Shown: in pieces, positions 9,164-11,328 of the stretch
How the letters are laid out: each line of letters opens with the position of its first letter
Position numbering within the stretch: position 1 is the first letter of the stretch
From: Marinobacter sp.
GTDB taxonomy: Bacteria; Pseudomonadota; Gammaproteobacteria; Pseudomonadales; Oleiphilaceae
Assembly (NCBI GenBank): GCA_030149475.1
Contig: JASBRL010000082.1
Location: 1-64,000, forward strand
DNA: 64,000 bases
Reading direction: 5' to 3'
Position numbers and translations under genes: made by a program
The notes under the pieces: model-generated
What the model was told of the DNA's origin: nothing
Databases searched by the model: none
What the model saw: the letters and a program-made list of their open reading frames with translations, nothing else

Positions 9164-9592
9164 ATGTTGCAACGATCACCACAGCCGGACACGATGCTTT
9201 ATATGCCCACGAAACAATCTCCTTTCTCTCTGCTTCGACACCGGGGTTTCTGGCGGGCCTGTCTGGTGTTCTCGGTGATCGCGATCCTGTTCCTCGCAAC
9301 CACCAGTCAGGCGTATCCGATACCGTCTGCGCCCAGCGACAAAGTCAATCACCTGATTGCCTTTCTGGAGCTGACGCTGCTGGTACGCCTGAGCTGGCCT
9401 CAAGTCCCGCTTGGCATGGTGGCCCTGTCGGTGCTGATCTTCGGCATGGCCATCGAACTGATTCAGGCACCATTGCCATACCGGGATTTTTCCCTGTGGG
9501 ACCTGCTCGCCGACGCCGTCGGCATTGCGTTTGGGCTCGCGCCCTGGCCCGGCCTGCGCTGGCTGCAGCTACCTGCCCACTCAGCGGAATAG
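9164..9592 (+). CDS. VanZ-like family membrane protein
   Basis: A small (up to 142 residues) membrane protein with about four predicted transmembrane helices, including WRACLVFSVIAILFLA and MVALSVLIFGMAIELIQ. Family features are the DKVNHLIAFLELTLL segment after the first helix and the IQAPLPYRDFSLWDLLADAVG motif (E-x-x-Q followed by R-x-x-x-x-x-D). Homologs in Gammaproteobacteria are uncharacterised; relatives in Gram-positive bacteria include VanZ (teicoplanin resistance), but that role should not be inferred here. The start is uncertain between ATGs at 9164, 9194 and 9203, as none has a strong ribosome binding site. Confidence 0.75.
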   Translation: MLQRSPQPDTMLYMPTKQSPFSLLRHRGFWRACLVFSVIAILFLATTSQAYPIPSAPSDKVNHLIAFLELTLLVRLSWPQVPLGMVALSVLIFGMAIELIQAPLPYRDFSLWDLLADAVGIAFGLAPWPGLRWLQLPAHSAE

Positions 9593-9661
9593 CGATATCC
9601 GCCCTCGACCGCGTGCGATATATCTCACGCTGACGTAAGCAGTGACTGTTTCGGCGCGTGC

Positions 9662-9683
9662 GTAAGACAAGATTACCGCTTAC
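9662..9683 (+). promoter_or_regulatory. Possible GacA/UvrY-type upstream element of the CsrB-like RNA
   Basis: GTAAG (9662-9666) and CTTAC (9679-9683) form an inverted pair like the TGTAAG-N6-CTTACA box of GacA-controlled sRNA genes, but the spacing is 12 rather than 6. It lies about 125 bases before the inferred transcription start and is followed by an AT-rich block (9684-9723). This is inference by resemblance only. Confidence 0.35.
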
Positions 9684-9786
9684 ATTATATTTTAATTTGC
9701 TGTTTTGTATAGTAATTCTTAAAAACTGCCGACAGCGACAAGAGACGAACCGCGCAGGTGTCACACGCTTGTTAAACGAGTATTGA

Positions 9787-9792
9787 TATAGT
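9787..9792 (+). promoter_or_regulatory. Candidate -10 box of the CsrB-like RNA
   Basis: TATAGT lies directly upstream of the GGA-rich transcript. No good -35 hexamer is seen 17 bases upstream, as expected of an activator-dependent promoter. The inferred start is about 9797-9799. Confidence 0.4.
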
Positions 9793-9796
9793 GGAC

Positions 9797-10026
9797 CTGT
9801 CATGGATGACAGGGAAATGGACGACATACGGGATGAACCTTCACAGGAATTGAAGGGAGGCAGGGACGTTACGGACGCACTGCTTGAGGGATAACCATTC
9901 AGGAACGCTGGCCCGGATGCCGGCACCAGGGAGCTGGTTCTGGAGTCAAACGCGACACGGCAGTCGCAACATGCGCAGGGATGCGACGACCTGTTTCGAC
10001 AAAGGCAACTACGGTTGCCTTTTTTT
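9797..10026 (+). ncRNA. CsrB/RsmZ-like regulatory RNA (CsrA/RsmA-sequestering)
   Basis: An intergenic stretch of about 230 bases containing 14 GGA trinucleotides. Several lie in the loops of hairpins with perfect stems: CCTGTCA-TGGA-TGACAGG (9797-9814), ACCAG-GGAG-CTGGT (about 9925-9938) and CGCA-GGGA-TGCG (about 9974-9985). A CAGGAACG motif is at about 9900. The region ends in a textbook terminator at 10001-10026. This architecture is the signature of RNAs that titrate the translational regulator CsrA/RsmA (CsrB, CsrC, RsmX/Y/Z). A TATAGT -10 box and a GacA-like inverted repeat lie upstream. Overlapping reading frames are not protein-like. Exact ends are inferred. Confidence 0.82.
10001..10026 (+). 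terminator. Rho-independent terminator of the CsrB-like RNA
   Basis: Perfect stem AAAGGCAAC / GTTGCCTTT with a TACG tetraloop, followed by further T residues. It points along the plus strand and ends no protein gene, which is what first marks an RNA gene here. Confidence 0.92.
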
Positions 10027-10185
10027 ATACCGGATACAATACCCCACCCACTCCTTGCCGGCAGTCGGTCGAATGAGATCGCCCGGTAATAGCCGTTTAT
10101 CCGGACCGCAGAGGGCATCCGCCGCCCGCAGGCAATCAATGCCGGCAGGCATAAATCATGCGAATCCGGTATACTGACGGGCTTT

Positions 10186-11328
10186 ATGCACGACCAGATC
10201 CGGATGCCGATGATGAGCACCAGACCCGATACCAGCGACTACCGGTCCCTGTTTCTTCATGATACGCCCTTGATGGATGTGCGTGCGCCGGTTGAGTTTG
10301 CCCGGGGCAGCTTTCCCCACACAGTGAACGCGCCATTAATGAACGACGACGAGCGCCATCGGGTCGGTGTTTGCTACAGGCAGAGTGGACAGAATGAGGC
10401 GATCAGACTCGGGCACCAGTTGGTTCAGGGCGACGTCAAGGCTGCCCGCATGGAGGCCTGGAGGCGTTTTGTCGCCAGGAACCCGAACGGTTACCTGTTT
10501 TGCTTCCGGGGCGGGCTACGCTCGCGACTGACCCAGCAGTGGCTGCACGAGGCGGGCATTGATTACCCCCTGGTCAAGGGCGGCTACAAGGCGCTTCGAC
10601 GCTTCCTGATAAACGAACTGGACACACAGGTGGCCCGCCAGGACTTTGTCGTGGTCAGCGGCCGCACCGGGACTGGCAAAACCCGCCTCCTGCTGGAACT
10701 GTCAAAGCCGATTGACCTCGAAGGCCTGGCCAATCACCGCGGGTCGAGCTTTGGCCGGCAGCTTACGCCGCAACCAACCCAGATTGACTTCGAGAACCGG
10801 TTGGCAATCGCGCTGCTGAAATCCGGGCATGCGGACACCGGACCCGTATTTGTCGAGGACGAAAGCCGGCTGATCGGCCAGTGCTATGTTCCGGACCCGC
10901 TGCGTCAGCGAATGGCCGAAGCGCCGCTGATGATTCTCGAGCGACCGATGCCTGAACGCATCAACATCATTCGTGAGGACTACGTCATCGATATGCTGGC
11001 CGCGTATCGGCAACGGGATGGCGATGAGGCGGGCTGGCATAATTTCTGTGACTATCTGCTCAGTGCTCTGGACCGGATACGCAAACGACTGGGGGGAGAC
11101 GGTCATCGCGAACTCCGTCACAGACTGCATCAGGCGCTGGATCTGCAGTATCGACACAACGACCTCAGTGGCCATGATCACTGGATCGAGGCGCTGCTCA
11201 CAAACTACTACGACCCCATGTATGATTACCAACTGAGCCAGAAAGCCAGCCGTGTCGTAGCTAGAGGCGACCATAAAACGCTGGCCACGTTTGCAAGAGG
11301 ACCTATCGAAGTGGCGGCCAGTACATAA
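10186..11328 (+). CDS. mnmH: tRNA 2-selenouridine synthase (MnmH/SelU)
   Basis: A 380-residue enzyme that exchanges sulfur for selenium in the 2-thiouridine of wobble position 34 of tRNAs for Lys, Glu and Gln, using selenophosphate. An N-terminal rhodanese domain (DVRAPVEFARGSFP; active-site loop CFRGGLRS) is followed by a P-loop domain with Walker A SGRTGTGKT and the LEGLANHRGSSFG motif. The C-terminal YYDPMYDYQL is conserved. The start could also be the ATG at 10210 or 10213, which gives an N terminus closer to E. coli SelU. selD is not in this window. Confidence 0.93.
   Translation: MHDQIRMPMMSTRPDTSDYRSLFLHDTPLMDVRAPVEFARGSFPHTVNAPLMNDDERHRVGVCYRQSGQNEAIRLGHQLVQGDVKAARMEAWRRFVARNPNGYLFCFRGGLRSRLTQQWLHEAGIDYPLVKGGYKALRRFLINELDTQVARQDFVVVSGRTGTGKTRLLLELSKPIDLEGLANHRGSSFGRQLTPQPTQIDFENRLAIALLKSGHADTGPVFVEDESRLIGQCYVPDPLRQRMAEAPLMILERPMPERINIIREDYVIDMLAAYRQRDGDEAGWHNFCDYLLSALDRIRKRLGGDGHRELRHRLHQALDLQYRHNDLSGHDHWIEALLTNYYDPMYDYQLSQKASRVVARGDHKTLATFARGPIEVAAST

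Follow-up and report, generated by a model that had tools for sequence, protein, structure and literature searches.

The question raised by the 64,000-nucleotide stretch of Marinobacter DNA analysed here (the window) is whether a short, GGA-rich segment between a gene for a VanZ-like protein and mnmH encodes an RNA that sequesters the regulator CsrA, and whether this can be decided by comparison with other genomes. Bacteria of the genus Marinobacter are common in the sea; in Pseudomonas, the GGA-rich small RNAs RsmY and RsmZ are controlled by GacA. An earlier note on the window had read the segment as a CsrA/RsmA-sequestering RNA, and this reading is supported by the conserved GGA sites, the covarying stems, the terminator, the promoter and the upstream palindrome, together with the csrA, gacA and kinase genes of the host. 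Judged from sequence, the segment very probably encodes a free small RNA, some 228 nt long, which would titrate CsrA under the control of GacA.

The locus and its partners

The locus lies on contig C119 of a host genome of 3.36 Mb in 177 contigs, 84% complete, and its features are collected in Table 1. The gene order confirms the site given in the earlier note: a CysZ/EI24 gene on the minus strand is followed by the VanZ-like gene (9164-9592), the RNA, whose start is predicted at about 9799, and mnmH (10186-11328). The nearest mnmH loci in named genomes belong to an Oleiphilaceae MAG and to many Marinobacter species, at 65-70% identity, and three loci of the genus are duplicates of loci from the named species M. 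lutaoensis, M. changyiensis and M. iranensis. The region had also been called gene-free, which agrees with what is found there, as the two open frames that cross the site (97 aa on the plus strand and 291 aa on the minus strand) have no Pfam match up to an E value of 0.1, and the alignment of the RNA homologues contains indels that are not multiples of three.

Table 1. Features of the probable sponge RNA locus in the window, and the second RNA of the same genome (last line).
Feature	Position	Strand	Basis or remark
GacA/UvrY-type palindrome CGTGCGATATATCTCACG, 18 bp	9612..9629	+	alignment of 40 promoters
Putative accessory half-site GTAAG	9635..9639	+	5 bp past the palindrome; by eye
Extended -10 promoter TTGATATAGT	9783..9792	+	no -35 at the usual spacing
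Probable CsrA-sponge RNA (CsrB/RsmZ-like)	9797..10026	+	GGA count, 40 homologues, covariation, model R1
Predicted 5′ hairpin with TGGA loop	9797..9812	+	predicted fold; GGA at 9804 retained in 39/40
Intrinsic terminator	10001..10026	+	9-pair stem 10001-10022, then T
Second GGA-rich RNA, candidate	C92:66908-67079 (= L269:1509-1680)	minus	model R2, 47 bits

CsrA, GacA and a BarA/GacS-type kinase are all encoded in the host genome. There is one CsrA match, of 66 aa, near-identical to PDB 1y00 over 58 residues; one GacA ortholog, with 65% identity to the probe sequence, which exceeds the NCBIfam cut-off for UvrY/SirA/GacA (301.8 against 280) and is followed, by eye, by uvrC; and one kinase frame of 992 aa, with one sCache_4 match and a receiver match.

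Conservation of the RNA in the genus

In a DNA search of 58 genomes the RNA stretch was matched in 25, that of the window among them, and all 25 are of the same genus. From this search and from named genomes 43 loci were gathered, and the removal of three duplicates (L042, L044, L048) gave an alignment of 40 rows (A1). Left out of it were L046, from M. xestospongiae, where mnmH is present with no GGA-rich stretch beside it, L027, which is part of the place of L025, and L028-L031, short blast matches to the terminator end only. The 40 distinct homologues come from Marinobacter and its near relatives. They are 208-270 nt long in the aligned stretch and carry 13-17 GGA each, in every case more than in their own dinucleotide shuffles (p < 0.05; 500 shuffles each). 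Eleven of the 14 GGA sites of the window are retained in at least 37 of the 40, the remaining three being poorly retained (18/40, 6/40 and 2/40), whereas the non-GGA triplets (n = 163) are retained on average at 30%. In some loci (L012, L013, L018, L019, L023, L038 and L039) an extra GGA-bearing block lies before the terminator.

A covariance model built from the alignment (R1) finds the window copy at 9794-10028 with 189 bits, this copy being one row of the model's own input. It matches 97 of 100 genomes of the genus, 94 of them at full length (at least 130 bits), while in G025, G083 and G117 the match is partial or weak (35-41 bits) and falls at places (L236-L238) which are not GGA-rich. A full-length match was not found in five genomes that are 99-100% complete (G004, G025, G083, G102, G117), where the sponge linked to mnmH may possibly have been lost or have strongly diverged. 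When the search was extended to the order (194 genomes), strong matches were confined to seven members of the genus and to G283, another genome of the family; R1 matches of 20-31 bits in 28 of the 194 were not counted. As regards mnmH flanks outside the genus that are GGA-rich, one (L053) was rejected as coding sequence and the others were judged by their GGA maximum alone. A search of plasmid records returned nothing.

Secondary structure and terminator

The consensus that RNAalifold derives from A1 has 48 pairs, with 97.2% of the cells paired and 17 pairs altered on both sides, neither value being reached in 500 shuffles; since the structure tested comes from the same alignment, these figures carry a bias in its favour. 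The cells altered on both sides number 48, against 14.1 in shuffles, the covariation score of A1 was reached by no shuffle, and when the partners are slid by 1 to 3 columns the pairing drops to 34-46%. The RNA stretch of the window folds with a predicted energy of -82.5 kcal/mol (z -3.87), and none of 200 shuffles was as low. In all 40 sequences the bases of GGA are predicted to be more unpaired than the other G and A (means of 0.62 and 0.45).

The earlier note had placed GGA in the loops of hairpins, and two of those it listed are present in the window, the one with the TGGA loop (9797-9812) and the one with the GGAG loop (about 9925-9938). The first three pairs of the former form in 35 of the 40 homologues, some of which have AGGA or GGGA in the loop instead; RNAalifold favours a different register for this first helix, in which three pairs form in 36 of the 40, so that the two registers are about equally well supported. 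In the GGAG hairpin, the loop GGA at 9930 is retained in 40/40; a stem of at least four pairs around it forms in 18/40 (for example CCAG/CTGG or CCAC/GTGG), and the RNAalifold consensus omits this hairpin.

The terminator, described earlier as a textbook one, is clean and conserved, with 6 of the 10 pairs of its helix (helix 10) altered on both sides. This bears directly on the possibility that the RNA is not free, and forms instead a cis-acting 5′ leader of mnmH. What speaks for such a leader is that mnmH lies on the same strand, 158 nt beyond the aligned end of the RNA in the window, and at 19-158 nt in 10 of the 40 loci, the window among them. However, besides the conserved terminator, the gap in the other 30 aligned loci is of 729-836 nt, and in the three inspected it is occupied by an open frame that runs the opposite way, while it is the vanZ side that stays constant (vanZ lies upstream in 39/40); we therefore regard the leader of mnmH as highly improbable. 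The convergent frame, which by eye has a methyltransferase-like motif in those three loci, is absent from the window (10026-10186) and from nine other loci.

Promoter and GacA box

The TATAGT that the earlier note had proposed as a -10 box without a -35 is real: it occupies 9787-9792, and of the 40 homologous promoters 33 have exactly this box and 39 have TTG in front of it, the conserved form being an extended -10 of the type TTGnTATAGT. The GacA-like site suggested with it, formed by GTAAG (9662) and CTTAC (9679), fared differently, since the pair exists but is not conserved in the aligned promoters, and it was rejected in favour of the conserved palindrome at 9612-9629.

The centre of this palindrome lies at about -178 from the predicted RNA start, and its conserved form is similar to TGTGAGATATnTCnnACA. 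Scored against TGTAAGN6CTTACA, 38 of the 40 promoters have their best match between -177 and -181 and one has it at -187, and the best box score is at least 9 in 37/40, compared with about 10% of shuffled promoters. The window's own palindrome is weak, with 7 of the 12 consensus letters; its best match to the consensus is elsewhere and the site was placed by the alignment. A half-site resembling GTnnGA is seen by eye at the place matching the accessory half-site in nearly all 40 promoters.

Between box and promoter (9632-9760 in the window) IHF-like sites are also enriched: in 25 of the 40 at least 12 of the 13 positions agree, as against 11% of mononucleotide shuffles. These sites are suggestive only. 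In E. coli csrB, an excerpt of PMC4682653 places a putative IHF site between the UvrY box and the promoter.

At the level of sequence, the comparison of homologues establishes that the RNA is conserved, as are its stems, GGA sites and terminator and the promoter and box in front of it. A rival reading is a structured RNA that serves another protein or pairs with mRNAs, the GGA having a role unrelated to CsrA, and it is true that blocks devoid of GGA are conserved as well, for example a CACCCC stretch and the segment CCTGTTCCGA before the terminator. Nevertheless, the GGA triplets are retained far better than the others, and the box upstream belongs to the known GacA/UvrY type, so that such a role for the RNA appears very unlikely.

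The GGA content of the window

The count of 14 GGA given by the earlier note for about 230 bases is exact for 9797-10026, and the density on which that note had let its reading depend is higher than in shuffled sequence: 14 GGA were attained by none of 5000 mononucleotide shuffles and by 46 of 5000 that preserve dinucleotides. The latter figure makes the significance of the single sequence moderate (about 0.009). When both strands of the 64 kb window are scanned, at least 12 GGA per 230 nt occur only at the RNA site, the 230-nt maxima being 15 on the plus strand and 10 on the minus strand. That the stretch arose by chance in intergenic DNA rich in purines, as those 46 shuffles might suggest, has a negligible probability in view of the conservation, the covariation and the occurrence throughout the genus.

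Relation to known RNA families

Neither the window nor 20 homologous loci gave a match to any Rfam family at its gathering score. The earlier note had pointed to the models of CsrB, RsmY and RsmZ as a means of recognising the RNA, and this expectation failed, with no match at cut-off. The CsrB model (RF00018) found nothing in the window, the 20 loci and 41 genomes of the genus, its E. coli control being matched; the RsmY model (RF00195), whose cut-off is 57 bits, scored 12.5 in the window and passed the cut-off in none of the 41 genomes; and the model PrrB_RsmZ (RF00166) gave nothing over the cut-off in the window, the 20 loci and the 41 genomes. The genome searches with these three models used stricter filters, which lose weak matches, and those for RsmY and RsmZ are without a positive control because no control genome passed the cut-off. 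Weak RsmY matches elsewhere in the genus were rejected; in the eight loci inspected (L112-L119, of 26 places listed) they are by eye terminators at the ends of genes. Since the models fail at their cut-offs, the RNA is not a sequence member of these Rfam families; it would be CsrB/RsmZ-like in its working, without a matching family.

With RsmY and RsmZ it would share control by GacA and richness in GGA, whereas their Rfam models stay below the cut-off on the Marinobacter RNA. Compared with E. coli CsrB, the model of the latter has 356 positions and R1 has 235, and the genes neighbouring E. coli csrB differ from those of the Marinobacter RNA. The likeness to CsrB lies in the many GGA in loops, the palindrome some 180 nt upstream and the half-site 5 bp beyond; in the excerpted text of PMC4682653, the UvrY palindrome of E. 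coli csrB (TGTGAGAGATCTCTTACA) is centred at -183/-182, and the accessory TGTAGGAGA lies 5 bp downstream of this IR. An excerpt of PMC11882849 counts 22 GGA in CsrB and 14 in CsrC.

Other marine Gammaproteobacteria offer similar cases, which belong to other genera and are likened here by their description. CsrB and CsrC of Marinomonas mediterranea are described, in an excerpt of PMC8523701, as two sRNAs with a GacA box, ANGGA motifs and a terminator, whose levels drop in mutants of the two-component system, and CsrB-like RNAs are known at genus level in Alteromonas (Aln1a-c; excerpt of PMC5864184) and Pseudoalteromonas (Pf1-3; excerpt of PMC11882849). In the open-licence part of PubMed Central, a description of either of the Marinobacter RNAs presented here was not found among the matches listed. 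Such RNAs were reportedly predicted in several genomes by Kulkarni in 2006, and given this, those of Marinobacter may have been predicted earlier; PMC5568370, a predictor paper, makes no mention of Marinobacter in its main text.

A second GGA-rich RNA upstream of comEA

The same palindromic box, as the pattern TGTRNGANANNTCNYACA on the forward strand of 41 genomes of the genus, led to a second RNA. The pattern occurs three times in one genome, twice in 23, once in 12 and not at all in five, and there is no site in the window's own genome; a reversed pattern used as a control in three genomes gave 0 sites on the forward and 1 on the reverse strand. Most of the sites are the promoter of the first RNA or precede another GGA-rich stretch. 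At least four (L201, L208, L213, L234) lie beside neither RNA, and are possibly further targets of GacA or the product of chance.

Of these four, L201, L208 and L213 were set aside because they are not GGA-rich. A total of 27 box loci, together with L236-L238, were filtered at a minimum of 8 GGA in 150 nt; 26 were kept, L234 being lost, and form the alignment A2, with 8-17 GGA each, counts which are not independent evidence because the loci were chosen partly on them. The spacing of the box and the search with the corresponding model (R2) are independent evidence for the second RNA. The centre of the box lies 65 nt ahead of a conserved 5′ block in 26/26, and R2 matches 98 of the 100 genomes of the genus, the window's own included, a few of them weakly (27-56 bits); in the five genomes of 99-100% completeness that R1 did not match at full length it reaches 119-129 bits throughout. 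Across the order it matches 8 of 194 genomes, namely seven of the genus and G283. Two R2 matches within a single genome are seen in G011 (contig C1) and G100 (contigs C1 and C6). In the window's genome the second RNA counts 13 GGA over 204 nt, and a site resembling the box lies 64 nt ahead of its predicted start. No Rfam match was found for the second RNA in 13 loci. Some of its loci have added GGA-bearing blocks (L191, L209, L235) and in others blocks are missing (L200, L226, L229), and among the loci of both RNAs the gain and loss of GGA units is modular.

Downstream of the second RNA, on the same strand, the window's genome has a ComEA-type helix-hairpin-helix gene, which is above the cut-off of the ComEA helix-hairpin-helix domain model and below that of the full-length comEA NCBIfam model; such a gene follows at 65-226 nt, likewise on the same strand, in 25 of the 26 aligned loci. 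A run of five T precedes comEA in only 5 of the 26, the other 21 being without it, and terminator scans of two of the loci found none on the right strand. Because it mostly lacks a terminator, the second RNA may be a leader of the comEA mRNA; it may also be a free RNA whose end is set by Rho or by processing. A parallel for a leader origin is found in Alcanivorax dieselolei, where two CsrA-related RNAs, CsrR1 and CsrR2, are described and CsrR1 comes from the 5′ leader of the hfq mRNA (excerpt of PMC9788540). The host gene differs, and the same excerpt reports CsrR1 in two species only, as opposed to the 98 of 100 genomes in the case of the RNA linked to comEA.

Proposed mechanism and significance

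By analogy with known Csr/Rsm systems, we infer the transcription of the first RNA, its activation by GacA, its binding of CsrA and its effect on targets. Signalling of the GacS/BarA type would lead to the phosphorylation of GacA, which, bound to the palindrome at 9612-9629, would activate transcription from the extended -10 promoter at 9787, and the polymerase, having made the RNA, would halt at the terminator. The 14 GGA sites, situated mostly in loops and linkers, would bind several CsrA dimers, and the mRNAs repressed by CsrA would thereby be freed.

A more speculative proposal, which we put forward only tentatively, is that the strong GacA boxes of Marinobacter mainly serve two CsrA sponges, one a free RNA and the other the 5′ leader of comEA. 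A competence (DNA-uptake) mRNA would thus carry a sponge throughout the genus, and a single transcript driven by GacA would both titrate CsrA and encode or control ComEA.

Marinobacter has CsrA, GacA and a kinase of the BarA/GacS type, yet the three Rfam models of the Csr type had yielded no partner RNA over their cut-offs in 41 genomes. With two conserved RNAs and their matching promoter boxes, the Gac/Csr circuit becomes testable in this genus, and the alignments A1 and A2 are possible seeds of two new RNA families. The RNA linked to comEA poses, in addition, the question of whether, throughout a genus, a CsrA sponge could form part of the leader of an mRNA.
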